64,000 nt of DNA, taken from positions 105,228 through 169,227 of the forward strand of contig NZ_LMRV01000033.1 in NCBI RefSeq assembly GCF_001428245.1, written 5' to 3'. The notes under the pieces were generated by a model. The model was not told the DNA's origin and made no database searches. It saw only the letters and a list, made by a program, of their open reading frames with translations. The stretch comes from Paenibacillus sp. Soil522 (GTDB taxonomy: Bacteria > Bacillota > Bacilli > Paenibacillales > Paenibacillaceae). Below are positions 41,954 to 54,710 of this stretch, piece by piece. Position numbers and translations under genes: made by a program. Position 1 is the first letter of the stretch. Every line of letters begins with the position of its first letter.

Positions 41954-42835
41954 GTGGTTCGAATGGCCAGCCTGAATCAAACGGACAGCAGTGATGTTCC
42001 CCTATATTTTGCATACAAGAGAACCAGCGAGCATGATGGTTACATGGAAACCTTTCACTCTCACCAAGGAATTGAAATATTGCTTATCCACCGGGGAAGC
42101 GGAACAATGGTTGTCAATCATAAAAGATACGAGATTACGCCCGGCATGCTCTGCGTGTTTCAACCGTATCAGCTTCATCATCTTCAGCTCAATTACTCGG
42201 ATAACGAGCCCTTTGAGCGTTCCATTGCGATATTTGAACCGACGATGTTTGAAGCGTATTTTGAACAATGGCAGGGCTTGCATGCTTTCTACAAACATAT
42301 CTACTTAAGCAGGCTGGCATTCCCATGCCTCTATGGGCTCGGAGATGCCATAGAATTATCTAACGTATTTCATAGCATGGAAGAGCGGATCGGATTTTTG
42401 TCTAAGAAGGATCAGGTCGAGGAAATTTCATTGTTTCTCGTGGCTCTGTTTCGTGCTCTCAAACCGGTCTGGCAGAAGCGTGAAGGGCAGGCTGTTCCGT
42501 CCGATACACGGAAAACCCATCAAGCGGAACGGATCTTAAAATGGATTGAATTGCATTATGCAGAACCATTCCGGTTAGAAATGATGTCTAAGGACCTTCA
42601 CTTGTCGCCTTATCATCTATCCCATTTATTTAAGGAGGCTATCGGTATCAGTATTACCGAATATATAGCGGCGCGAAGAGTACATCAAGCCGTCATGCTG
42701 TTGACCGCGACCAGTAAACCGGTCTCCCTGATTGCGGAAGAAATCGGCATTACGAACAGCTCTTATTTTTGCTCGTTCTTCAAAGCTCAAATGGGCATTA
42801 CACCTCATCAATACCGAAAAAGATGGCGCCGTTAA
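41954..42835 (+). CDS. AraC-family regulator
   Basis: A 293-residue regulator with an N-terminal cupin-like ligand domain (FHSHQGIEILLIHRGSGTMVV; PGMLCVFQPYQLHHL). Two C-terminal helix-turn-helix motifs follow: LEMMSKDLHLSPYHLSHLFK and VSLIAEEIGITNSSYFCSFFK. The start is taken as GTG 41954, seven bases behind CGGAG; ATG 41963 is possible. It is divergent from the Gfo/Idh oxidoreductase, the likely target. The glycosidase downstream has its own promoter. Confidence 0.88.
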   Translation: MVRMASLNQTDSSDVPLYFAYKRTSEHDGYMETFHSHQGIEILLIHRGSGTMVVNHKRYEITPGMLCVFQPYQLHHLQLNYSDNEPFERSIAIFEPTMFEAYFEQWQGLHAFYKHIYLSRLAFPCLYGLGDAIELSNVFHSMEERIGFLSKKDQVEEISLFLVALFRALKPVWQKREGQAVPSDTRKTHQAERILKWIELHYAEPFRLEMMSKDLHLSPYHLSHLFKEAIGISITEYIAARRVHQAVMLLTATSKPVSLIAEEIGITNSSYFCSFFKAQMGITPHQYRKRWRR

Positions 42836-42843
42836 CCTAAATT

Positions 42844-42958
42844 TTTAGTTATTTATAATTAAGTTTAGTTTATTTTATATAAAAAACCTTAAAAAACATT
42901 GACTATTATGATTATCAGATGCTACTATGATTTGTGTAGATAAACAGTTTAGTTGTTT
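42844..42958 (+). promoter_or_regulatory. Promoter and TTTAGTT operators of the apiosidase-like gene
   Basis: TTGACT at 42899-42904 and TACTAT at 42923-42928 are 18 bases apart. TTTAGTT occurs at 42844-42850, within AGTTTAGTTTA at 42862-42872, and at 42948-42954 inside AAACA-N7-TGTTT. The same heptamer recurs in front of the LacI gene and the isomerase operon (49740-49945), suggesting that one LacI protein binds all three. The stretch 42836-43041 holds no gene. Confidence 0.5.
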
Positions 42959-43041
42959 TCGGAATAATTCAGTTGGTGGAAAATAAGCCGATGAATATGA
43001 AGTTAGAGTGACAGCCGCAAAACACTAAGGAGGCTATCATA

Positions 43042-44781
43042 GTGGCATTTACCGAGAATACCAAAGTCGGCGAGATTTGGGCGAATGAGAAGGCCCGGGC
43101 CGTTCTGCTTGCTTATGTTCCGCATCTTGCAGAGTCCCCTTATCTGTCGTTTATGAAAATGTATACGCTGCCACAGCTGGCCGCCGTGAATCAGACATGG
43201 TCTTGGACGCCGGAGATGCTGAAGGCTGCGCTTAGCGAGCTTGCACAAATACCGGATGACAAGACTGCAGAGATTGATGCGAAGCCTTCTACTGATTACG
43301 AAAGCGAGGCTGTGGCAGTTGGCTCGGCTGCAGCTGAAGCGCCTGAGCACGCTGAAAAATGGGGCATTTATGAGCTGGTCCTGTACGGACCGGCACATGG
43401 CAACCCGTTTATTGACGTATCGCTAAGCGCCATATTTACACATGAAGGACAAGGGCGGCAAGTGCTTGGCTTCTATGACGGGAATGGTATTTACCGTATT
43501 AGGTTTATGCCGGACGCCGAGGGAACATGGACATTTTGCACGAAGAGCACGGCGCGTTCGCTCGATAGCATTAAGGGAACGTTAATCTGTACAGCGCCTT
43601 CTTCAGGCAATCATGGTCCTGTTCGGGTGAAAAATACGTTTCATTTTGCTTACGAGGACGGCACGCCTTACTATCCGGTCGGAACAACCTGCTACGTATG
43701 GTCCCATCAAGAGACGGAATTGCAGGAGCAGACGCTTGAGACGTTGGAAGCATCGCCTTTTAACAAGCTTCGCATGTGTGTTTTTCCGAAATCATACCAA
43801 TTCAATACGAATGAACCGATTCATTATCCGTTTGAAGGTTCTTTGGAAAAGGGCTGGGATTACACCCGGTTCAATCCGGTCTTTTTCCGGCATTTAGAGA
43901 ACCGGATCTCGGATCTCGGAAGGCTGGGCATTGAAGCGGATCTTATTTTGTTCCATGCCTACGACCACTGGGGATTTTCAGAGATGAACCAATCAGTCGA
44001 CGACCGCTACTTGCGATACCTTGCCGCCCGGCTGTCTGCTTACCGCAACGTCTGGTGGTCGCTGGCCAACGAGTATGACTTAATGTGGTCGAAGGAGCAG
44101 GAGGACTGGGAGCGGTTTGCGCAGATTGTCACGGAGAACGATCCGGCCCGGCACTTGATCTCGATTCATAACTGCTTTGCCTTTTACGATTACAGCCGTC
44201 CGTGGGTGACGCACTGCAGCGTGCAGAGAATCGATGTGTACAGGACTGCGGAGAATACGAATGACTGGCGGAACGAGTGGAACAAGCCTATCGTCATTGA
44301 TGAATGCGCCTACGAGGGTGACATTGACATGGGATGGGGAAACATTACCGGTCAGGAGATGGTGCGCAGGTTTTGGGAAGGGGCCATTCGCGGCGGTTAT
44401 GTTGGACACGGCGAAACCTATGTGCATCCCGGGGATATTTTATGGTGGTCCAAGGGGGGGAAGCTGTACGGAAGCAGCCCGGATCGTATCGCTTTCCTTC
44501 GCAAAATATTGGAAGCGGGTCCCGCAGGCGGGCTGAATCCGCTGAAATCGGAATGGGATGTGCCGTCGGCAGGAATTCAAGATGAATATTATTTGTTCTA
44601 TTACGGCTTCAACCAGCCGCGCTACAGACATTTCAATATGAAGCCGGGAATTCGCTATAAGGTTGAAGTGATCGATACGTGGAATATGACCATTGAGGAG
44701 CGGGAAGGTATCTTCGAAGGCGCATTCCGCGTTGAGCTGCCTGGTCGTTCCTATATGGCTGTTACGCTGAAGAAGGCTTAA
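43042..44781 (+). CDS. DUF5060/apiosidase-like/DUF5605 glycosidase
   Basis: A 579-residue protein without signal peptide. Residues about 1-55 form a small helical domain. From about 105 a DUF5060-like beta-sandwich follows (WGIYELVLYGPAHGNPF). A TIM barrel of the DUF4038 apiosidase-like group starts near 215 (YYPVGTTCYVWSHQ; SPFNKLRMCVFPK). The C-terminal beta-domain is DUF5605-like. Candidate acid/base and nucleophile are Glu344 in SLANEYD and Glu421 in VIDECAYEG. Relatives include GH140 apiosidase, which releases apiose from rhamnogalacturonan II; the assignment here is by family, not proof. It starts at GTG behind AAGGAGG and shares upstream repeats with the isomerase/kinase operon. It probably acts on imported glycosides. 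Confidence 0.78.
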   Translation: MAFTENTKVGEIWANEKARAVLLAYVPHLAESPYLSFMKMYTLPQLAAVNQTWSWTPEMLKAALSELAQIPDDKTAEIDAKPSTDYESEAVAVGSAAAEAPEHAEKWGIYELVLYGPAHGNPFIDVSLSAIFTHEGQGRQVLGFYDGNGIYRIRFMPDAEGTWTFCTKSTARSLDSIKGTLICTAPSSGNHGPVRVKNTFHFAYEDGTPYYPVGTTCYVWSHQETELQEQTLETLEASPFNKLRMCVFPKSYQFNTNEPIHYPFEGSLEKGWDYTRFNPVFFRHLENRISDLGRLGIEADLILFHAYDHWGFSEMNQSVDDRYLRYLAARLSAYRNVWWSLANEYDLMWSKEQEDWERFAQIVTENDPARHLISIHNCFAFYDYSRPWVTHCSVQRIDVYRTAENTNDWRNEWNKPIVIDECAYEGDIDMGWGNITGQEMVRRFWEGAIRGGYVGHGETYVHPGDILWWSKGGKLYGSSPDRIAFLRKILEAGPAGGLNPLKSEWDVPSAGIQDEYYLFYYGFNQPRYRHFNMKPGIRYKVEVIDTWNMTIEEREGIFEGAFRVELPGRSYMAVTLKKA

Positions 44782-44911
44782 CATGCTTGGTATTAATGAT
44801 GCCGGTTTAGCATTTTATTTTCAAGTTCCCGACTGCCATTATTTTCTGGGTAATTTATGATGCATAGAAAAAGAATCCAAAGGCAAAATAAACAAAAAGA
44901 AAGGGGACAAT

Positions 44912-45493
44912 ATGATGTCAAAAAACAAAATGGCTGTAAAAATAGTGACGGTTGTCACCACAAGCTTATTTTTAGTGATAACTGGCTGTACAAACATTCC
45001 GAATAGAGAGGTACGACAACAAACCGTTAGAGACAATAATCGCGAACCTCAGGCGTTGGTTGATCGTAACCTTGATAATCGCGGACCGAGAGCTCTTCGC
45101 GATGAGAACAATGTTGATAATCGCGGACCGAGAGCTCTTCGCGATGAGAACAATGTTGATAATCGAATCGAGGTTGCCGACAAGGCTGCCGAAAAAATCA
45201 CGAACGTGAAGGGCGTCGATCAAGCCAATGTGCTCATCACCCGTCGAAACGCTTATGTTGCTGCCGCGCTTGATAGCAATCAAAATCAGCTGACCAAACA
45301 GATTGAGGATCAGATTGCGCAGCAAGTAAGAGCAGTAGATCCTGATATCCAAAATGTATATGTATCGACCAATCCGGAATTTATTGACCGGATTAACGGA
45401 TATGTCAATGATGTTGGGCAAGGAAGACCGGTTGCAGGTTTTGTCGAACAGTTTAATGAAATGGTCGAGCGAATATTTCCTAATGCGAGATAG
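44912..45493 (+). CDS. YhcN/YlaJ-type sporulation lipoprotein
   Basis: A 193-residue lipoprotein with lipobox VITGC, lipidated Cys near residue 26. The C-terminal half (about 85-190) matches the YhcN/YlaJ domain: KITNVKGVDQANVLITRRNAYVA and NVYVSTNPEFIDRINGY. Relatives are forespore or spore-cortex-associated lipoproteins. Between signal and domain lies a 14-residue repeat (DNRGPRALRDENNV) in two full copies. Two terminators follow. It is a single-gene unit between the glycosidase and gapB. Confidence 0.87.
   Translation: MMSKNKMAVKIVTVVTTSLFLVITGCTNIPNREVRQQTVRDNNREPQALVDRNLDNRGPRALRDENNVDNRGPRALRDENNVDNRIEVADKAAEKITNVKGVDQANVLITRRNAYVAAALDSNQNQLTKQIEDQIAQQVRAVDPDIQNVYVSTNPEFIDRINGYVNDVGQGRPVAGFVEQFNEMVERIFPNAR
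45074..45165 (+). repeat. 42-bp in-frame tandem repeat
   Basis: Two exact 42-bp units (45074-45115, 45116-45157) plus 8 bases of a third. Each encodes DNRGPRALRDENNV. Identity at DNA level suggests a recent duplication by slippage; copy number may vary between strains. Confidence 0.9.
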
Positions 45494-45507
45494 TTGAATC
45501 AGTTGAT

Positions 45508-45545
45508 AAAACCCATCTTGATTGCCAAGATGGGTTTAATTTTTA
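45508..45545 (+). terminator. Rho-independent terminator
   Basis: ACCCATCTTG pairs perfectly with CAAGATGGGT around a 5-base loop and is followed by TTAATTTTT. Confidence 0.88.
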
Positions 45546-45556
45546 CAATTTTATGG

Positions 45557-45590
45557 AAGACACGGCCTTTAGGGCATGTGTCTTTTTTTC
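45557..45590 (+). terminator. Second terminator in tandem
   Basis: AAGACAC pairs with GTGTCTT, with an inner GCC-GGG pairing, and T7 follows. Together with the preceding hairpin it insulates the gapB operon. Confidence 0.75.
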
Positions 45591-45750
45591 GTCTTCATTT
45601 ATAGTGTGTACTATATATTATTTATGATGTATTATATCCTGCATTAGGCGTGATAAAATTTTATATATTGTGCAATAAAAAATAAGTATTATGCATTAAA
45701 AGAAAAATGGTGTACGCTGTTAACAAATAGATCAAAGGAGGAATGCTAAT

Positions 45751-46782
45751 ATGTTTCGTGGCGTAGGCATTAGCGGGATGGGAAGAATCGGACGGCTGTT
45801 GGTAAGAAAAATTTTCTCGAATCCGACACCATCCATTTCACTGAAAGCCATTAACAGCACGTATCCGATTGAAACCATTGCTCATCTCTTGAAATATGAC
45901 TCTGTGCACGGAAGATGGGATGCGGATATTGGTATTCGCGATAACGATCTTGTGATTAACGGACATAGGATCTCTGTTGTATTTGAAAGAGAGCCGGAAA
46001 ACATTTTGTGGAGCCGATACGGTGTCGATCTTGCCATCGATGCAACGGGGAAATTCAACAACAGGGAGGGATCGCTCAAGCATGTCGTTTCTGGCGCATC
46101 TAACGTATTGATTACGGCGCCTGGGGAGCATATGGATTTGACCGTCGTCATGGGCGTAAATGATCATCTATACGACCCGAAAAAACATAAACTGCTGTCG
46201 GCGGCATCGTGCACCACGAATTGCCTTTCTCCCGTTCTTCAAATATTGGACAAGACGCTTGGCGTACAGTCAGGCTGGCTAACCACAGTACATTCGTATA
46301 CTTCAGACCAAAATCATCTGGATAATCCGCATAAAGATTTACGAAGAGCAAGAGCGTGCACGGAATCGATTGTCCCTACGACGACAGGAGTCGGGAAGGC
46401 GCTTGCAGATGTGCTGCCGCACTTGGCATCCCGCATTCAGGGACTGTCCTTGAGGGTTCCGACACAGGATGTCTCTCTACTAGATTTGAATATCAAAGTG
46501 TCCAGAAATACAAGCGTGAAGGAAGTAAATGCCGTCATTCAAGCCGCAGCCGAAGGAAGCAGCTCCCCATATATTGGATTCTCGTCTGAGCCGCTCGTGT
46601 CCGCCGACTATATCGGCTGCACCAAATCGGCTGTTGTGGATGGACTTTCGACAATGGTTATGAACGATGAAATTAAGGTGCTTGCATGGTATGACAACGA
46701 GTGGGCATATGCCAGCCGCGTATTGGACATTGCATATATGGTAAAAGAAAGGGTGAATCGCACATGGGAAATAACGGTATAG
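45751..46782 (+). CDS. gapB: Glyceraldehyde-3-phosphate dehydrogenase, gluconeogenic GapB type
   Basis: A 343-residue enzyme that interconverts glyceraldehyde 3-phosphate and 1,3-bisphosphoglycerate. The N-terminal Rossmann motif is GISGMGRIGRLLVRK. The catalytic Cys is 154 in SAASCTTNCLSP. The second beta strand ends AINSTYP without the Asp that binds NAD in glycolytic GapA, in line with NADP preference and a gluconeogenic role. Overlap with the SR1P-like gene and then pckA makes it the head of a gluconeogenic operon. AAAGGAGG precedes the ATG. In Bacillus gapB and pckA are repressed by CcpN during growth on glucose; the upstream AT-rich stretch could hold such sites, but I cannot assign one. 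Confidence 0.93.
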   Translation: MFRGVGISGMGRIGRLLVRKIFSNPTPSISLKAINSTYPIETIAHLLKYDSVHGRWDADIGIRDNDLVINGHRISVVFEREPENILWSRYGVDLAIDATGKFNNREGSLKHVVSGASNVLITAPGEHMDLTVVMGVNDHLYDPKKHKLLSAASCTTNCLSPVLQILDKTLGVQSGWLTTVHSYTSDQNHLDNPHKDLRRARACTESIVPTTTGVGKALADVLPHLASRIQGLSLRVPTQDVSLLDLNIKVSRNTSVKEVNAVIQAAAEGSSSPYIGFSSEPLVSADYIGCTKSAVVDGLSTMVMNDEIKVLAWYDNEWAYASRVLDIAYMVKERVNRTWEITV

Positions 46783-46961
46783 ATTTAGGGGTTATTATTT
46801 GTAAGCATTGTATGTCGGTCATCGATACTCTTCCAACAGAGAGAGTAACGACCTATTACTCGGATTGCCAAGAACAAGATTGTTTAATAACGAGAGGGAC
46901 AAATGATTCGAAGTTTGGAAGCGTTATCAATTTGATGCCTGCAACGGGCGGGAAGGAATGA
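46764..46961 (+). CDS. SR1P-like GapA-binding peptide homologue
   Basis: A 65-residue peptide with a Cys motif [11 protein letters not shown], then [10 protein letters not shown] and CQEQDC. The pattern CxxC-x-EKVTTLY-C is the signature of SR1P, the peptide encoded within B. subtilis regulatory RNA SR1 that binds GapA. This one is longer than the 39-residue Bacillus peptide, with extra residues at both ends. It starts within gapB, overlapping by 19 bases, and its stop overlaps the pckA start by four bases. Translation of the three genes is thus coupled. Four or more Cys could hold a metal. Family call is by motif only. Confidence 0.72.
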
Positions 46962-48523
46962 ATAGTATGGAGACAATGGTACAGCTGGCTTCGAACATAC
47001 ACTATAATTTGCCGGTATCCGCTTTAATTGAGAAATCGCTGCTGCGCAATGAAGCGGTTCAAACGGCAACGGGAGCTCTGCAGGTTTTTACGGGAAATTT
47101 TACCGGACGCTCTCCTAAAGATAAATATGTCGTAAACGAACCTTCTGTCTCAGAACACATAGCGTGGGGAAACGTTAATCAGCCACTATCCCAAGAACAT
47201 TTTCACCAGTTGTATCAAAAGGCAAAAAGGTATATGGAGGAACGCGAGCTGTTCGTATTCGATGGGTTTGCAGGAGCTGATCCGCAGTACCGCTTGCCGA
47301 TTCGAGTCGTGAACGAGTATGCATGGCATAACCTGTTTGCCCGTCAGCTGTTTATCCGTCCTACACAGGACGAATTGGCGGCTCATGTACCTGAATTTAA
47401 CGTAATCGCCCTTCCTGGATTAAAGGCTGATCCGGAAATAGACGGAACGCATTCGGAAACGTTCATCTGCATCTCGTTTGAAGAGAAGGTTGTCCTTATC
47501 GGCGGTACAGAATATGCTGGCGAAATGAAAAAATCAATCTTCAGTGTATTGAATTATATACTGCCGTTCAAAGGCGTTCTCCCTATGCATTGCTCCGCTA
47601 ATGTCGGCGAGGGCGGCGATACGTCACTCTTCTTCGGATTATCGGGCACGGGCAAAACAACGCTTTCCGCCGATCCTGACCGCAGCTTAATTGGGGACGA
47701 CGAGCACGGCTGGTCAGAGCAGGGCATTTTCAACTTTGAGGGCGGCTGCTATGCCAAATGTATCGGTCTGAGTGAGAAGAAAGAACCGCAAATATGGCAG
47801 GCAATACGGTACGGAACCTTATTGGAAAATGTCGTGCTGGATGCGGCGACAGGAGTTCCCGATTATAACGATAATCGGATTACCGAAAACACGCGGGCTG
47901 CTTATCCGATTGAGAACATTCCGGGAGCTGTCCAACCTTCTATGGCAGGCCATCCGAATGTGATCCTTTTTCTGACAGCAGACGCTTGCGGCGTTCTTCC
48001 CCCAATCTCGAGGCTTACTAAGGAGCAAGCGATGTATCACTTCTTGTCCGGGTATACATCAAAGCTGGCCGGTACGGAGAGAGGGGTCATAGAACCGGAG
48101 TCAACATTCTCCGCCTGCTTCGGCGCTCCGTTTCTGCCGCTCCCGCCTTCCGTATATGCTGAAATGCTGGGCAACAAAATCGAGCAGTTCCAGGCTAAAG
48201 TATACTTGGTTAACACGGGCTGGTTCGGGGGCCCATACGGAGTGGGACAACGCATGAATTTAACCCATACGAGAGCAATGGTAACGGCTGCTATTAACGG
48301 AACAATCGAGGACTCGGGGTTTACGGTCGATCCTATCTTCGGCTTGCATTGCCCGCAAACAGTAGAGGGAGTTCCAAGCGAATTGCTGTTTCCGCGGAAC
48401 GCATGGCAGAACAAGGGAGCATATGAAGCAAAAGCGGAGGATTTGGCAAATCAGTTTAAGCGGAATTTCAGTAAATTTAAGAATGTAAGCAAGCAGATTG
48501 CAGAAGCAGGTCCGCTGGTTTAA
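46958..48523 (+). CDS. pckA: Phosphoenolpyruvate carboxykinase (ATP)
   Basis: A 521-residue enzyme that makes phosphoenolpyruvate from oxaloacetate and ATP, the entry reaction of gluconeogenesis. Family motifs are [12 protein letters not shown] near residue 50, the P-loop [16 protein letters not shown] with Lys233, the metal-binding IGDDEHGW, and [15 protein letters not shown]. Full length for the family. ATG 46958 overlaps the preceding stop as ATGA; a terminator follows the gene. Confidence 0.96.
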
Positions 48524-48557
48524 CTATTCATCTCGGTAGGCGGCAGCGAAATAAGCA

Positions 48558-48597
48558 AAAAGGATTGATGGATGCTCTCATCAATCCTTTTCTTTTT
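48558..48597 (+). terminator. Rho-independent terminator
   Basis: AAAGGATTGATG pairs with CATCAATCCTTTT across a short loop and is followed by a T-rich tail. It ends the gapB-pckA operon. Confidence 0.88.
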
Positions 48598-48639
48598 ACT
48601 CAGATTGGAGACTGCCGACCGCCGCTGCCGTGTTTTTAT

Positions 48640-49698
48640 TTAAATGTGATGGACTGATTCCTTAACGGGAGCGCGCGATGATAGCCGCTCGATAAACTGC
48701 GTATCAACAGTAATCTTCGTTTTTACAAGATCGTCTGTCTCGATGGATTGCATGATTAAATCTACGGCTAAGTGAGCCATACGCTCTTTCTCGACATGAA
48801 CGGTCGTCAGTTCGGGAGAAACGATAACGGCCTCGGATATGTTGTCAAACCCGACCACGGATACGTCTTCCGGAACGCGGTAACCAAGCTCGCTCAATGT
48901 TTTAATGGCGCTGATGGCGATATAGTCACACTCGCAGAACAAAGCCGTAGGCAAGGCATTTCCCGCATCCAAATAGGCGTCCAGCTGACTTTTTAGCGCT
49001 TCCTGCGAAGAAAGAATGGTAGGCGCTACCGAGAATACACATTGGTCGTTAACTTCTATGTCTCTTTCGTGCAATGCTGTCGTAAATCCGCGTTTTCTTT
49101 CATCAAAATTGTGAATTCTTACTTTTGAGGCTATGTATCCGATATTTTGGTGTCCAAGCGCACATAAGTGAGAACCCGCCTGGTAAGCCCCCATCACATT
49201 ATTGATTTCAACAAAATGGACCGGAAGTGTTTCAAAACAATTGTCGAGTACGACAAGCGGTGTTGTAAGCTGCTCTGCTACAGCTGCGATTTGTGAATGA
49301 TTCAGATTGGTTCCGAGCAGAATGACGCCGTCACTGCGCTTTTCCTCCGCCAAGGCTTTAATATTCTCATGAAAATGGTCCATATCGACCGAAGTGAAAA
49401 TGAGCGAGAAACCATTCGTCCGGCATCTTTCCTCGATGTAATGAATCAGCTCTCGAAAAAATGGCTGTTGATAATATTGTTCCAGTACGATTCCAGAGTT
49501 GGCGAATGCAAGAAAGGTAAGAGATTTCGTCGCCGTCTCCGTAACCGCTGCTCTGGACTTCGGCATGTAGCCGTTTTCTTTTGCAATCTGCAATATTCGA
49601 TCGCGAGTTTCGGAACTGATGCCTTGCTTCCCGCTGAAAGCAAACGAAACAGCAGATTTTGAAACTCCCGCAATTCTAGCGATATCCTCCATTTTCAC
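48640..49698 (-). CDS. LacI-family repressor of the sugar catabolic operon
   Basis: A 352-residue repressor. The N-terminal LacI helix-turn-helix is MKMEDIARIAGVSKSAVSFA and continues FSGKQGISSETRDRILQIAK. The periplasmic-binding-protein-like effector domain follows (DGVILLGTNLNHSQIAAV; LCALGHQNIGYIAS; VSVVGFDNISEAVIVSP). It is divergent from the isomerase operon, with repeats of TTTAGTT in the 275-base interval. It is the best candidate to control that operon and the apiosidase-like gene. Confidence 0.93.
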   Translation of the reverse strand: MKMEDIARIAGVSKSAVSFAFSGKQGISSETRDRILQIAKENGYMPKSRAAVTETATKSLTFLAFANSGIVLEQYYQQPFFRELIHYIEERCRTNGFSLIFTSVDMDHFHENIKALAEEKRSDGVILLGTNLNHSQIAAVAEQLTTPLVVLDNCFETLPVHFVEINNVMGAYQAGSHLCALGHQNIGYIASKVRIHNFDERKRGFTTALHERDIEVNDQCVFSVAPTILSSQEALKSQLDAYLDAGNALPTALFCECDYIAISAIKTLSELGYRVPEDVSVVGFDNISEAVIVSPELTTVHVEKERMAHLAVDLIMQSIETDDLVKTKITVDTQFIERLSSRAPVKESVHHI

Positions 49699-49739
49699 GA
49701 TTAAGAATCCCTCTTCCCGTTTAAGATCAGTTTAGTAAG

Positions 49740-49945
49740 TTTAGTTTACACTGAGCGGAGAATAGAAGCAAGCGCGAATGGCGTTATTGCTAAATATTTA
49801 GTTTGTTTAACTAAATTTAAAGATAAAAATATATAAACTGATTGACCAAACCGCTTTATGGTGTTAAATTTATGTTCGTAAGCACTTATTCGAAAATAAA
49901 TTGTTAAGTTAGTTTAGTTTAATTACAATTTTTTTAGTTTAGTTT
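49740..49945. promoter_or_regulatory. LacI operator cluster and operon promoter
   Basis: TTTAGTT occurs at 49740-49746, at 49797-49803 as the left arm of the inverted repeat TTTAGTT-N5-AACTAAA (49797-49815), at 49913-49919, and twice overlapping at 49933-49944. AGTTTAGTTT is repeated 25 bases apart at 49911-49920 and 49936-49945. TTGACC at 49842-49847 and TAAATT at 49865-49870 (17 bases apart) form a candidate promoter for the isomerase operon. The operators thus flank it on both sides, an arrangement that would allow looping. Confidence 0.6.
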
Positions 49946-49973
49946 CATAAGTGTAGCTGGAGGAGAAGTTCAG

Positions 49974-51407
49974 ATGAAAAAAATTAAATTAGGATATGCG
50001 CCAACACGCCGTTTCGTATTTAGCGCTGAGGATGCCTTTAAGTACAAGGTATTGATTAAAGAGAAAATTGAAAGCTTCGGTATGGATATCGACATCGTTG
50101 ACCTTGAAGGCATTAACAATGAAGGACTGCTTTACGACGACAATATTAATGCGGATCTTATTGCGGATCGTTTCAGGAAGGAAAATGTGGATGCCGTGTT
50201 TTTCCCGCATTGTAACTTCGGGACGGAGGATACCGTCGCCCGTGTAGGCAAGGCGCTTGGTAAGCCGGTGCTTCTATGGGGCCCGCGTGATGAATCGCCG
50301 CTCGAAGACGGTATGCGGCTGCGTGATACCCAATGCGGATTATTCGCGACAGGTAAAGTGCTTCGCCGATTTAACGTACCTTTCACCTATGTAACGAACA
50401 GCCGGGTGGACGATCCTGTATTCGAGCGGGGATTCACGAACTTTATTGCGGCATCGAATGTAGTAAAACAGTTCCGCAGCCTGCGAATTTTGCAGATCGG
50501 GCCGCGTCCTTCATCCTTTTGGACCATGATGTGCAACGAAGGGGAGCTGCTGGAAAGATTCGGTATCGAAATTCATCCGATTACGCTAGTCGACATCCAG
50601 AGAGCGTCGAAACGCATCGAGAATGGAAACAGCTCCGAGCTGGCGGAGGCAATCGATTTTATTAAAGCAAAGCTGGACTGGTCGGAAGTAACGGAGGCTG
50701 ATGTGAAGCGCATCGCCGCTTTGAAAGTCGCGATGAAGCAGTATGCCGTTCAGACAGGCAGCTCCGCAATCGCGATTCAATGCTGGTCATCCCTGCAGGA
50801 TGCGATGGGCATTATGCCATGCCTCGCAAATGCGATCTTAACCGATGAACAAATTCCGGTTACTTGTGAAACGGATATTCATGGGGCGATCACCTCTGTC
50901 ATGGTGCAGGCGGCGACGATGAATCAGCATCCTACCTTTTTTGCCGATCTCACGGTCCGGCATCCGGAAAATCCGAACGGCGAGCTGCTGTTCCACTGCG
51001 GTAACTTCCCTGTATCGCTATCGGTGGAAAACAAGCCAAAGCTGCGTAAGCACTTTCTCTTTGACGATCACGCTCCGGGCACGCACGAAGGCGAAATCAA
51101 AGGCGGCAATATGACGCTTGCACGTTTTGACGGCGACCACGGCGAATATCAGCTTTTCCTCGGCAAAGCCCGCGGCATTGAAGGGCCTTATACTCGCGGT
51201 TCTTACGTGTGGGTTGAGGTGAACGATTGGCCATTGTGGGAAGAAAAATTAGTTAAGGGACCTTACGTGCATCACTCCGTAGGCATCCATGCCAATGCAA
51301 TACCTGCTTTGTACGAAGCATGCCATTATATTCCGGGTCTTACAACGGATGCTGTTGATCCGACTGAACGTGAAATTCAGGCTTGGCTGCGCGGCGCAGG
51401 CCTTTAA
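49974..51407 (+). CDS. L-fucose/L-arabinose isomerase-family sugar isomerase
   Basis: A 477-residue aldose-ketose isomerase-like enzyme. It has family stretches KENVDAVFFPHCNFGTEDTVA in the first domain, SSAIAIQCWSSLQDAMGIMPC and PVTCETDIHGAITSVM with acidic metal-ligand candidates, and a late VHHSVGIHAN. Known members isomerise free pentoses or deoxyhexoses with Mn2+. Followed by split transketolase and an FGGY kinase, it would generate the ketose that the kinase phosphorylates. The D-apiose isomerase role is an inference from this context. AGGAGAAG precedes the ATG. Confidence 0.85.
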   Translation: MKKIKLGYAPTRRFVFSAEDAFKYKVLIKEKIESFGMDIDIVDLEGINNEGLLYDDNINADLIADRFRKENVDAVFFPHCNFGTEDTVARVGKALGKPVLLWGPRDESPLEDGMRLRDTQCGLFATGKVLRRFNVPFTYVTNSRVDDPVFERGFTNFIAASNVVKQFRSLRILQIGPRPSSFWTMMCNEGELLERFGIEIHPITLVDIQRASKRIENGNSSELAEAIDFIKAKLDWSEVTEADVKRIAALKVAMKQYAVQTGSSAIAIQCWSSLQDAMGIMPCLANAILTDEQIPVTCETDIHGAITSVMVQAATMNQHPTFFADLTVRHPENPNGELLFHCGNFPVSLSVENKPKLRKHFLFDDHAPGTHEGEIKGGNMTLARFDGDHGEYQLFLGKARGIEGPYTRGSYVWVEVNDWPLWEEKLVKGPYVHHSVGIHANAIPALYEACHYIPGLTTDAVDPTEREIQAWLRGAGL

Positions 51408-51425
51408 ACAAGGAGGAGTTTAGAA

Positions 51426-52271
51426 ATGGAAACGGTAGCATTGAAAGCGAAAGCGGCGCAAATCCGAATGGATCTGCTTCGCATGATTCACGGCGCAAAG
51501 ACAGGTCATACCGGCGGCTCGCTAAGCAACACGGACATTTTGACGGCATTGTATTACCGGGTGATAAACATCGATCCGCAAAACCCGAAATGGGAAAAAC
51601 GCGACCGGTTTATTGCCAGCAAAGGACATTCTGTCGAATCGTTATGGTGTATACTCGCCGATCTCGGATTTTTCCCGAAAGAGGAGCTGGAGTCGTTCAG
51701 CCAATTTGGAACAAGACTAATCGGTCACCCCAACAACAAAGTAGCAGGCATTGAGATGAATACGGGGGCACTCGGACACGGGCTGGCGATATCGGTCGGC
51801 ATGGCTTTGGCGTCCAAGCGGGATTCAAATAGCTACCGGGTTTTTTGCTTGATGGGGGATGGCGAACAAGCAGAAGGGTCGGTATGGGAAGCGGCAATGG
51901 CGGGCGCGCACTATAAGCTGGACAATTTGGTCGGGATTATCGATCGTAACCGTCTGCAAATAAGCGGTTCGACCGAAGAAGTAATGGGTCTTGATCCGCT
52001 GGAGGATAAGTGGGCATCGTTCGGCTGGAACGTTGTATCGATTGACGGGAACGATATGGATTCGCTCGTAGAAGCACTGGAAGCAGTAGCGTCAGTGAAG
52101 AATAAACCGACTCTCATTATGGCGAATACCATCAAAGGCAAAGGCGTTTCTTTTGCGGAAAACGTACCGCACTGGCATCATCATGTACCGAATGACGAGC
52201 AGCTGGAGATGGCTTTAAACGAGCTTACAGCATTGATAGAAAGCTATAAACAGGAAGGGCAGGTGCGATAA
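51426..52271 (+). CDS. Transketolase, N-terminal (TPP-binding) subunit
   Basis: A 281-residue protein equal to the first domain of transketolase. It has GHTGGSLSNTDILTALYY, the substrate-site SKGHSVESLW, and the thiamin-diphosphate motif GDGEQAEGSVWEAAMAGAHY continuing to IDRNRLQ. The second domain is a separate gene three bases on. Split transketolases in sugar operons commonly serve specialised substrates, such as apulose 4-phosphate in the D-apiose pathway (AptA). That substrate is inferred here. Confidence 0.92.
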   Translation: METVALKAKAAQIRMDLLRMIHGAKTGHTGGSLSNTDILTALYYRVINIDPQNPKWEKRDRFIASKGHSVESLWCILADLGFFPKEELESFSQFGTRLIGHPNNKVAGIEMNTGALGHGLAISVGMALASKRDSNSYRVFCLMGDGEQAEGSVWEAAMAGAHYKLDNLVGIIDRNRLQISGSTEEVMGLDPLEDKWASFGWNVVSIDGNDMDSLVEALEAVASVKNKPTLIMANTIKGKGVSFAENVPHWHHHVPNDEQLEMALNELTALIESYKQEGQVR

Positions 52272-52274
52272 TTT

Positions 52275-53213
52275 ATGGCTAACAAAATTCCAAACCGGCA
52301 AGTGATTTGCGACACGCTTCTGGAACTGGCAAAAGACGACAGCAATATCATGGTGCTGGCCAGCGATTCGCGCGGCTCGGCTGCTATGGCTCCATTCGCG
52401 AGTACGTATCCTGATCAATTCGTAGAGGTGGGCATTGCCGAGCAAAATATTGTCGGCATTTCTGCCGGTCTGGCGCACAGCGGCAAGAAGCCTTTCGTCA
52501 CTTCGCCTGCTTGCTTCTTGAGCATGCGCAGCATCGAGCAGATCAAGGTAGATGTTGCCTATTCCGCAACGAATGTTAAATTGGTCGGAATCAGCGGCGG
52601 CGTAAGCTATGGAGCACTCGGTATGTCGCATCACTCCGTCCAGGATTTGGCGGTCATGCGGGCTATCCCCGGACTTGCGGTCGTCCTGCCTGCCGACCGG
52701 CATGAAACGAAAAAAATGACCGAAGCGCTTGTGAAGCATGAGGGAGGCGCCTATGTTCGAATCGGAAGAAATCCCGTGGAGGATGTATATGACTCCGATG
52801 ACTACGAATTCGTTATCGGCAAAGCGGTCACGATGCGCGAAGGATCGGATATTACGATCATCGCGGCAGGGGAAACGGTGCGGGTTGCGCTTGACGCGGA
52901 AGCTGCACTCAAAGAGGCTGGCGTGTCCTGCAGAGTAATCAACATGCATACGATCAAGCCGCTGGACGAAGCAGTGATCATCCAAGCTGCGCGCGAAACC
53001 GGACGGATCATTACAATCGAAGAGCACAGCATTCACGGCGGGCTTGGCGCCGCCGTTGCAGAAGTGGTCGTTCAGGAGCATCCGGTACCCGTAAAAATAG
53101 TCGGCATTCCCGATGAACCGGCAATTGCCGGCAAGACGTCGGAAGTGTTTGACCATTACGGAATCAGCGCAGACAACATCAAGAAGATTGCCTTGGAGTT
53201 GCTGGGCGGATAA
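52275..53213 (+). CDS. Transketolase, C-terminal subunit
   Basis: A 312-residue protein with the pyrimidine-binding domain of transketolase (VEVGIAEQNIVGISAGLAHS with the TPP-activating Glu; RSIEQIKVDVAYSATNVKLV) and the C-terminal regulatory-like domain (DITIIAAGETVRVALDAEAAL). It starts three bases behind the N-terminal subunit and must assemble with it at the shared active site. It corresponds in gene order to AptB of apulose-4-phosphate transketolase; the substrate is inferred. Confidence 0.92.
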   Translation: MANKIPNRQVICDTLLELAKDDSNIMVLASDSRGSAAMAPFASTYPDQFVEVGIAEQNIVGISAGLAHSGKKPFVTSPACFLSMRSIEQIKVDVAYSATNVKLVGISGGVSYGALGMSHHSVQDLAVMRAIPGLAVVLPADRHETKKMTEALVKHEGGAYVRIGRNPVEDVYDSDDYEFVIGKAVTMREGSDITIIAAGETVRVALDAEAALKEAGVSCRVINMHTIKPLDEAVIIQAARETGRIITIEEHSIHGGLGAAVAEVVVQEHPVPVKIVGIPDEPAIAGKTSEVFDHYGISADNIKKIALELLGG

Positions 53214-53225
53214 GGACGGCAAACG

Positions 53226-54710
53226 ATGGAAAAATATATTTTGGCGGTCGATCAAAGCACATCGGGAACGAAAGCGCTTATTGTCAACCGGGACGGCAGC
53301 GTGATCGCAAGGAGCTCGGCGGAGCATAAGCAATCGTATCCGGCACCCGGCTGGGTGGAGCATGATCCGCTTGAAATTTATAATAACGTAATGAAGGTTG
53401 CTCTTGATGTGCTCGAAAAAACAGGCATCTCTCCCGGCAGCCTTGCCGCTTTAACAGTTACGAACCAGCGTGAAACGGCTGTCATGTGGGATAGGGAAAC
53501 CGGTATTCCCGTGTACAATGCGATTGTGTGGCAGTGCCAACGAACGGCTGAACAGTGCGCCAGCTTGAAAGCGGCTGGACATGAGGAGATTGTAAGGGAG
53601 AAAACGGGGTTAATGCTTGACCCCTATTTCTCGGCGGCCAAGTGGAGATGGATGCTGGAGCATGCGGATGGCACAGCCAAAAAGCTGGATGAAGGGAAGC
53701 TGCTAGCCGGAACAATCGACAGTTGGCTCATTTGGAAGCTTACTGGGGGACAGGTTCATGCTACCGATTACACGAATGCGAGCCGAACGTCGCTGTTTAA
53801 TATCCATTCGCTGGAATGGGATGAAGAGATGTGTTCCTTATTCGGGGTGCCTTCGATCCTGCTTCCGGAAGTAAAGTCCTCCGATGACTTGTTTGGTTAC
53901 ACGGAAGAGTCCGGCTGGCTGGGAGCCCGCGTTCCGGTATCAGGTATTATTGGCGATTCTCAAGCGGCGTTGTTTGGCAACCTGTGCTTGGAAGAAGGGT
54001 CGGCCAAAGCGACATATGGAACGGGAACATCGGTGCTAATGAACGTAGGCAGTAAGCCGGCTTTTTCCGGTAATGGGCTGGTTCAAGCGATTGCATGGGG
54101 AAGAGGCGGAGAAGTCACTTATGCGCTCGAGGCTGTCATTCGAATTTCCGGCGATAGTATAAAATGGATTCGGGATAATTTGGGCCTATTTGATACCTTT
54201 GACGAAATGGAGCGTTTGCTGGAGAGTGTCCGGGGCAACGAAGGCGTTTATCTCATTCCGGCATTCGTCGGCCTTGGAGTGCCATATTGGCAGCCGAACG
54301 CCAGAGCTGCTATTACAGGAATGAACCGGGGAACCGGCAAGGCGCATATTATTCGGGCGGCTCTGGAAAGCATAGCTTACCAAGTAAGGGATGCGGTTGA
54401 GGTTCTTCAAGCCGCATCTGGCATTACGCTGCGTGAACTGCGCGCGGACGGAGGCGCGGCGGATAATAGCTTCCTGATGCAGTTCCAATCCGACATGCTC
54501 AGCAAAAAGGTTATAAGGTCGGGCGTTGCGGAACTTTCGGCTATGGGGTCCGTGTATATGGGCGGCCTTTCGGTCGGCTATTGGTCGTCGCTTGAGGAAA
54601 TTGTCAAGCAGCAAACGACGCCTCTCAGCTATGAACCACAAATGGAACCGGATGAGGTCGAGCGTTATTGCACGGGATGGAAACAAGCTGTAGCATCCGT
54701 TTTAGGATGA
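53226..54710 (+). CDS. FGGY-family carbohydrate kinase
   Basis: A 494-residue sugar kinase with two actin-like ATPase domains. Family motifs are AVDQSTSGTKALIVNRDG (phosphate 1), TVTNQRETAVMWDRETG and NAIVWQCQRT in the first domain, and GTGTSVLMNVG, AFVGLGVPYWQPNARA and LRADGGAADNSFLMQFQSDM in the second. It looks close to glycerol kinase in these motifs, but in an isomerase-transketolase operon a ketopentose such as D-apulose is the more likely substrate. It is the last gene of the operon; I found no strong terminator behind it, only short G/C hairpins near 54730-54775. Confidence 0.9.
   Translation: MEKYILAVDQSTSGTKALIVNRDGSVIARSSAEHKQSYPAPGWVEHDPLEIYNNVMKVALDVLEKTGISPGSLAALTVTNQRETAVMWDRETGIPVYNAIVWQCQRTAEQCASLKAAGHEEIVREKTGLMLDPYFSAAKWRWMLEHADGTAKKLDEGKLLAGTIDSWLIWKLTGGQVHATDYTNASRTSLFNIHSLEWDEEMCSLFGVPSILLPEVKSSDDLFGYTEESGWLGARVPVSGIIGDSQAALFGNLCLEEGSAKATYGTGTSVLMNVGSKPAFSGNGLVQAIAWGRGGEVTYALEAVIRISGDSIKWIRDNLGLFDTFDEMERLLESVRGNEGVYLIPAFVGLGVPYWQPNARAAITGMNRGTGKAHIIRAALESIAYQVRDAVEVLQAASGITLRELRADGGAADNSFLMQFQSDMLSKKVIRSGVAELSAMGSVYMGGLSVGYWSSLEEIVKQQTTPLSYEPQMEPDEVERYCTGWKQAVASVLG

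Follow-up and report, generated by a model that had tools for sequence, protein, structure and literature searches.

Apiose occurs in rhamnogalacturonan II and in many plant glycosides, and a D-apiose transketolase pathway, whose reaction scheme (ApsI/AplK/AptAB) was reportedly set out by Carter et al. in 2018, is the described system closest to the locus analyzed here. We analyzed a window of 64,000 nucleotides from Paenibacillus sp. Soil522 (C33:105228-169227, contig NZ_LMRV01000033.1; genome 6.4 Mb, 120 contigs), in which a glycosidase gene, a LacI regulator gene and an operon encoding an isomerase, a split transketolase and an FGGY kinase had been predicted to form one regulon for a branched pentose such as apiose. 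We put the probability that this region is a D-apiose regulon at roughly 85%. According to excerpts of a study of Escherichia coli, aplK, aptA and aptB are named in strain SE15, and tested strains bearing the cluster grow on D-apiose; Escherichia may handle the isomerase step otherwise, two oxidoreductases being proposed there (PMC13001218). Clusters of the E. coli type were also found on plasmids of Rahnella and Sodalis, with aplK 72% and aptA 78-79% identical to the E. coli genes. In the open-licence literature, as judged by titles and abstract openings in partial ranked lists, no paper evidently dealt with Paenibacillus or Listeria pathways for apiose.

The gene inventory of the original prediction, including the TTTAGTT repeats in front of both transcription units, was confirmed in full (Table 1). 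The genes for the isomerase, both transketolase subunits and the kinase form one operon (49974-54710) with gaps of 18, 3 and 12 bases; the LacI gene is divergent from it, and the glycosidase gene lies about 5 kb (5.2 kb) upstream. The assignment draws on observed gene content, close spacing, the repeats and their conservation, co-occurrence and active-site residues. In the pathway we propose, an intracellular glycosidase would act on an imported plant apioside to release apiose, which the isomerase would convert to apulose; the GlpK-like kinase would form apulose 4-phosphate, and the two-subunit transketolase would transfer a two-carbon unit of this compound to glyceraldehyde 3-phosphate, yielding xylulose 5-phosphate and dihydroxyacetone phosphate. 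LacI, as the putative repeat binder, would repress both units via TTTAGTT, with the sugar or one of its derivatives as the releasing inducer.

The isomerase had a match at 1e-10 in 72 of the 295 family genomes searched, and 62 of these, the own genome included, carry an orthologue with at least 82% identity (partial or broken in G225 and G294); the source names of its 120 best protein relatives are mostly Paenibacillus and Cohnella. We sampled 34 orthologous regions from 33 family genomes picked for spread, which together with the window make up the 35 loci referred to below, and six regions with distant paralogues. Relatives of both transketolase subunits were present in all 35 loci, those of the kinase in 34, of LacI in 31 and of the DUF5060 glycosidase in 13. 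Among 12 loci of more distant Bacillota (one from Listeria, one from Monoglobus and 10 from further genomes), transketolase and kinase genes were found near the related isomerase gene in seven.

The two-subunit AptA/AptB-type transketolase that the D-apiose pathway requires is present in the operon, the N-terminal subunit being 48% identical to AptA and the C-terminal subunit 36% identical to AptB of E. coli SE15. Judged by sequence, the strongest link to apiose is provided by transport genes beside the operon in relatives. In the family genome locus L045, where identity to the window proteins is 90% for the isomerase, 85% and 87% for transketolase subunits N and C, and 72% for the kinase, genes for a binding protein, a DUF2291-like protein, an ATPase and a permease follow 120 bases after the kinase gene on the same strand. 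This ATP-binding cassette (ABC) set has the same composition as in the E. coli and Rahnella clusters, and its binding protein is 70% identical to that of Rahnella, 50% to that of E. coli and 31% to RbsB. The same set was found beside the kinase gene in two distant Bacillota (L187 and L183), with binding proteins 67% and 59% identical to that of Rahnella.

Other neighbors of the operon point in the same direction. A protein matching the apiosidase-like family PF13204 with 306 bits is encoded beside the operon in L058 and has relatives in L050 and L052 (3/35 loci), a GH1 gene adjoins the operon in L052, and cellobiose or beta-glucoside phosphotransferase system (PTS) genes were found in L058 and L064. 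The combination of GH140-like or GH1 genes with such PTS genes in these four loci suggests uptake of apiosyl-glucosides. In L057, and by clustering in L053, the operon is accompanied by a RuBisCO-like protein whose best NCBIfam match is OiaX (470.7 bits, cut-off 700) and a kinase whose best match is OiaK (492.9 bits, cut-off 700); OiaK-like genes occur in 3/35 loci and OiaX-like genes in 2/35. We take OiaX and OiaK to belong to apionate catabolism. Beside these genes (L057:1967-7125, and L053) lies a gene for a 575-residue protein without a Pfam or NCBIfam match, with relatives in L044 and L061; it is a candidate apionate-pathway enzyme. Further operon neighbors in relatives include rhamnosidases and a GH43 protein.

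We further compared the kinase with glycerol kinases. The window kinase scored 612.8 bits against the NCBIfam glycerol-kinase model TIGR01311 (cut-off 590.35), as relatives in L036, L045 and L058 likewise exceeded the cut-off, and its closest solved relatives are glycerol kinases; a pathway for glycerol, dihydroxyacetone or another short-chain compound with a second glycerol kinase could thus be considered. However, we regard this as very improbable: the genome encodes a separate GlpK of 705 bits, and E. coli AplK, to which the window kinase is 39% identical, likewise has the glycerol-kinase model as its best profile (495 bits). The residues of the pocket also differ. The loci yielded 97 kinases: four true GlpKs and 93 cluster kinases, a few of the latter being one gene present in two loci. 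Ser246 and Ser270 in E. coli GlpK numbering were found in 93/93 cluster kinases, including E. coli AplK, and Lys17 in 91 (the remaining two are truncated there). The four true GlpKs compared, from the own genome, E. coli K-12, Listeria and a Paenibacillus relative (each >700 bits), have Arg17, Gln246 and Phe270. Phe270 is listed as one of five GlpK signature residues in the available part of one paper (PMC3245297), and in the part available of another, Gln247 and Phe271 of a Plasmodium glycerol kinase touch glycerol (PMC2680290); we equate the latter two with Gln246 and Phe270 of GlpK. The window kinase thus resembles GlpK in its profile match and keeps Arg83, Glu84, Trp103, Tyr135 and Asp245, whereas it has Ser in place of both Gln246 and Phe270 and Lys in place of Arg17. 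A tree containing 33 cluster kinases was compatible with one clade of all of them (p-AU, from the approximately unbiased test, 0.451) and with a grouping of the window type with GlpK (0.392). The FGGY kinase, a predicted apulose kinase, has an AplK-like pocket at positions 17, 246 and 270, and its subfamily is corrected to glycerol kinase by profile; a grouping with enzymes of another proven substrate, named beforehand as a point against apiose, was found on the surface only, since the profile says glycerol kinase and the pocket does not.

The isomerase was described as a fucose/arabinose-isomerase-family enzyme; membership in the superfamily holds, and its score of 25.0 bits lies below the Pfam fucose-isomerase cut-off of 29.3. 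An L-fucose/L-arabinose isomerase family protein adjoins aplK in the Rahnella and Sodalis plasmid clusters and is, by its position, taken to be ApsI. It matches the window isomerase at 26.6% and is not its orthologue: in a tree of hand-chosen rows, with one very long branch flagged, the two fall into two deep lineages. The alignment shows no variation at a Glu and an Asp spaced 24 residues apart or at a pair of adjacent His; residues of this kind bind the metal in FucI. No solved relative was found by sequence at thresholds of 0.001 (single sequence) or 0.01 (profile). Around members of the ApsI-position lineage (the best 80 of 592 candidates plus Rahnella and Sodalis), relatives of transketolase N were found in at least 53 cases, of transketolase C in at least 52, of the kinase in at least 49 and of the DUF5060 glycosidase in at least 4, counts that are no survey because only the best 80 candidates were taken. 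In five Paenibacillaceae loci (L065-L069), the isomerase shares about 50% identity with the Rahnella enzyme, but relatives of the transketolase or kinase are absent from its surroundings; one genome (G288) has both kinds of isomerase.

The best NCBIfam match of the window isomerase is SftI (NF048012, 112.6 bits), and with a transketolase gene behind it, a sulfosugar (sulfoquinovose) transketolase pathway might be envisaged. This is, in our estimate, the least probable of the alternatives: the score is far under the cut-off of 700, the Rahnella ApsI-position enzyme reaches the same level (116.5 bits), and no sulfonate gene was recognized among the proteins scanned. The SftI identity was accordingly rejected as a family-level match only. 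A different rare or branched sugar, that is, another aldose fitting the isomerase, kinase and transketolase, would agree with the separate isomerase lineage and with isomerase relatives that occur without transketolase (L188-L192) and must act on another substrate or route. In contrast, the importer beside the same operon in L045, L183 and L187 is of the apiose-cluster type, OiaX/OiaK-like and apiosidase-like genes neighbor the operon in relatives, and the kinase pocket equals that of AplK at positions 17, 246 and 270, although the window kinase keeps Tyr135 where the enteric AplK has Leu. We therefore consider such a sugar improbable; these three lines, together with the AptA/AptB homology, uphold apiose as the originally proposed substrate.

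The TTTAGTT repeat was only weakly enriched in the window as a whole (14 copies versus 8.9 expected; 6 of 100 shuffles reached as many). Counting both strands, three copies lie ahead of the glycosidase gene (42836-43041) and six between the LacI and isomerase genes (49699-49973), numbers that were reached by 3 and 0 of 5000 dinucleotide shuffles, respectively; five other intergenic stretches tested contained no copy. With L064, in which the isomerase frame is broken, left out, 30 of the 34 other loci carry TTTAGTT or its complement upstream of the isomerase gene, where first-order Markov sequences would give 5.6, and 29 carry GTTTAGT (2.6 expected). In the remaining four loci (L034, L035, L038 and L039), the glycosidase gene lies between LacI and isomerase genes and has 3-4 copies ahead of it. 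Among 15 glycosidase copies in the loci, six had at least three upstream repeats (these four, and the stand-alone copies of the window and L049); nine had none, including four that immediately follow the kinase gene (L032, L036, L048 and L051). By comparison, 17 of 335 other genes had a copy within 320 bases, seven at least two copies and four at least three. Because all four share the intergenic stretch of an isomerase or LacI gene, at least three copies outside such stretches occur in the 35 loci only at the stand-alone glycosidases of the window and L049. Repeats ahead of a PTS regulator gene (L058) and a GH1 gene (L064) were discounted on the same ground, both lying in the intergenic stretch of the isomerase. 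These results, with the same repeats and LacI helix in Listeria, sustain the claim of a single regulon, and we consider it very probable that the glycosidase gene belongs to it. The genes between the two units (44912-48523) lack TTTAGTT repeats and are not counted in the regulon.

A genome-wide search pointed to no further members. The spaced motif TTTAGTT-7-TTTAGTT had no match in the genome. Two copies within 26 bases were found at five places, two of which are the two units, and the other three looked unrelated by eye; since a reversed-pattern control gave 17 places, the count alone proves nothing. The pattern GTTTAGTTTA occurred at 15 places (32 for its reversed control), three of which lie in the two regions; ten of the others, inspected by eye, included no likely regulon member.

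The recognition helix of LacI is VSKSAVS in the window, as in Listeria monocytogenes (LacI 41-42% identical, four repeat copies), and VSKAAVS in some Paenibacillaceae. In L183, L184, L186 and L187, LacI proteins 32-35% identical have other helices (that compared in L183 sits about 8 kb from the operon), and one or no repeat copy was found. Together with Monoglobus (LacI 30% identical, two copies), this comparison favors LacI as the binder of the repeats. Promoter-like sites in both units sit among the repeat copies, a placement that is weak because 24 such sites were found in the region against 16.6 expected.

The glycosidase is the sole PF13204 match in the genome (64.5 bits, cut-off 26.5); its DUF5060 and DUF5605 domains likewise exceeded their Pfam cut-offs, and no signal peptide was seen by eye. 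It had been linked to glycoside hydrolase family 140 (GH140), which was not supported. The catalytic-domain match is shared with GH140-like apiosidases (PF13204; BT_1012 type), but 11/11 aligned DUF5060 proteins have Glu (344 in the window) where 5/5 GH140-like ones have Asp, presumably the catalytic acid/base, and DUF5060 and DUF5605 are additional domains, the latter in place of the BT_1012-type C-terminal domain; GH140 identity was rejected on the residues. Glu421 aligns with a conserved Glu of the GH140-like proteins. The only solved relative is 4n0r, an unassigned 'putative glycoside hydrolase'. About 100 residues ahead of DUF5060 (43042-43340) have no Pfam match, and the shorter relatives in L186 and L075 lack them. 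From its sequence, we consider the chances about even that the glycosidase is an apiosidase. There is a real, if smaller than even, possibility that the apiose operon is genuine and that the glycosidase acts on another linkage or sugar, merely sharing the regulator: its gene is 5.2 kb away beside an AraC gene, its active-site residues differ from those of GH140-like proteins, and GH78, GH106, GH3 and GH43 glycosidases also neighbor the operon in relatives. However, the glycosidase gene is part of the operon arrangement in eight loci (in L032, L036, L048 and L051 it immediately follows the kinase gene, and in L034, L035, L038 and L039 it is flanked by the LacI and isomerase genes), and DUF5060 glycosidases are found in the Monoglobus operon and near ApsI-lineage clusters in at least four loci.

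Several observations weigh against the D-apiose assignment. With the ApsI-position enzyme, itself known by position only, the isomerase shares no more than about 26% identity, and it belongs to a separate deep lineage; the kinase passes the glycerol-kinase cut-off and is not linked to AplK by its tree. Five of the 12 distant Bacillota loci (L188-L192), with isomerases 50-60% identical to that of the window, lack transketolase and kinase, so the substrate is fixed not by the isomerase family alone but by operon context; one of them (L191) has DhaK-, TPI-, RpiB- and transaldolase-like neighbors by eye, another rare-sugar route. Only 13 of the 35 loci have the glycosidase gene close to the operon. 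Repeats occur without a LacI neighbor in L045 and L047, and their spacing is irregular, with direct and inverted copies rather than one palindromic operator. No apiose-type importer was found in this genome, where the best binding protein reached 34%; uptake of the apioside by another transporter is therefore the simplest guess.

Table 1. Coordinates of the features of the predicted D-apiose regulon (positions in the window)
Feature	Position	Strand	Basis
Three TTTAGTT copies ahead of glycosidase	42844..42954	.	Starts 42844, 42864, 42948
Promoter-like TTGACT-18-TACTAT, extended TG, among repeat copies	42899..42928	+	Weak consensus match
Glycosidase, DUF5060 + Apiosidase-like PF13204 + DUF5605	43042..44781	+	Open reading frame and Pfam domains; candidate catalytic Glu344, Glu421
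LacI-family regulator	48640..49698	-	PF00356 and PF13377, both above cut-off
Six TTTAGTT copies, including palindrome ATTTAGTTTGTTTAACTAAAT at 49796	49740..49944	.	49740, 49797, 49809 (reverse), 49913, 49933, 49938
Promoter-like TTGACC-17-TAAATT, extended TG, among repeat copies	49842..49870	+	Weak consensus match
Isomerase, L-fucose/L-arabinose isomerase superfamily; predicted D-apiose isomerase, second lineage	49974..51407	+	Profiles, alignment, tree
Transketolase N-terminal subunit, AptA-like	51426..52271	+	48% to E. coli SE15 AptA
Transketolase C-terminal subunit, AptB-like	52275..53213	+	36% to E. coli SE15 AptB
FGGY kinase, GlpK subfamily by profile, AplK-like pocket; predicted apulose kinase	53226..54710	+	Ser246, Ser270, Lys17 (E. 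coli GlpK numbering)

The AraC-family gene (41954-42835) lies immediately upstream of the glycosidase gene. Between the two units (45751-48523) are genes named by eye as glyceraldehyde-3-phosphate dehydrogenase and phosphoenolpyruvate carboxykinase-like, by eye a gluconeogenic pair; both are present in L031.

Related clusters may be more widespread. A cluster of L. monocytogenes (L074:4004-13086, NZ_LR134403) comprises LacI, isomerase, split transketolase and 'glycerol kinase' genes, a beta-glucoside PTS, a DUF4038 gene and TTTAGTT repeats, and is likely an apiosyl-glucoside operon; we take it to be lmo1030-1036. In the accessible part of one paper, lmo1030-1036 is a patchily distributed cluster and lmo1030 is labelled BglG-family, at odds with the LacI of L074 (PMC2996996). 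In Lactobacillus jensenii, according to excerpts of another, genes for a fucose isomerase, DUF4038 and DUF5060 proteins, a rhamnosidase and a GH1 protein form a cluster that is interpreted there as amylase-like (PMC10711310); this cluster may belong to the same apiose theme. The portion available of a Paenibacillus polymyxa genome paper mentions an apiosidase once (PMC6465253). A broader proposal, which we advance tentatively and at slightly less than even odds, is that DUF5060/DUF5605 proteins are separate intracellular apiosidases with a Glu/Glu pair and that the isomerase is a second, independently specialized D-apiose isomerase, which with GlpK-like apulose kinases would make up a Bacillota-wide apiose regulon, including L074, hidden under the names 'glycerol kinase' and 'fucose isomerase'. 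If the D-apiose assignment is true, a test of two or three residues could reassign many genes so named in Paenibacillaceae, in Listeria and in a gut pectin degrader, the glycosidase family of 4n0r would gain a precise candidate substrate, a regulon with a defined repeat would become testable, and a second solution to the isomerase step of apiose use would be at hand.

In comparison with known systems, the locus appears to be a variation of the D-apiose transketolase pathway, different in the isomerase lineage, the glycosidase family and LacI control. It shares with ApsI/AplK/AptAB a predicted isomerase step, a GlpK-like Ser246/Ser270 kinase, the two-subunit transketolase and, in its relatives, the type of ABC importer, which was not found in this genome; however, its isomerase is of a separate lineage (about 26%), LacI replaces a SorC-type ('sugar-binding') regulator, and a DUF5060 glycosidase is added. 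The Listeria cluster resembles it in LacI (41-42%), isomerase (55%), transketolase (61-63%), GlpK-like kinase and TTTAGTT repeats, whereas a beta-glucoside PTS and the DUF4038 (GH140-like) gene take the place of the DUF5060 glycosidase. In Monoglobus pectinilyticus (L075), genes for LacI, isomerase (54%), the transketolase halves, a kinase named glycerol kinase and a DUF5060 glycosidase (45%) stand in a row, although its LacI is only about 30% identical and two scattered copies of the repeat were found.

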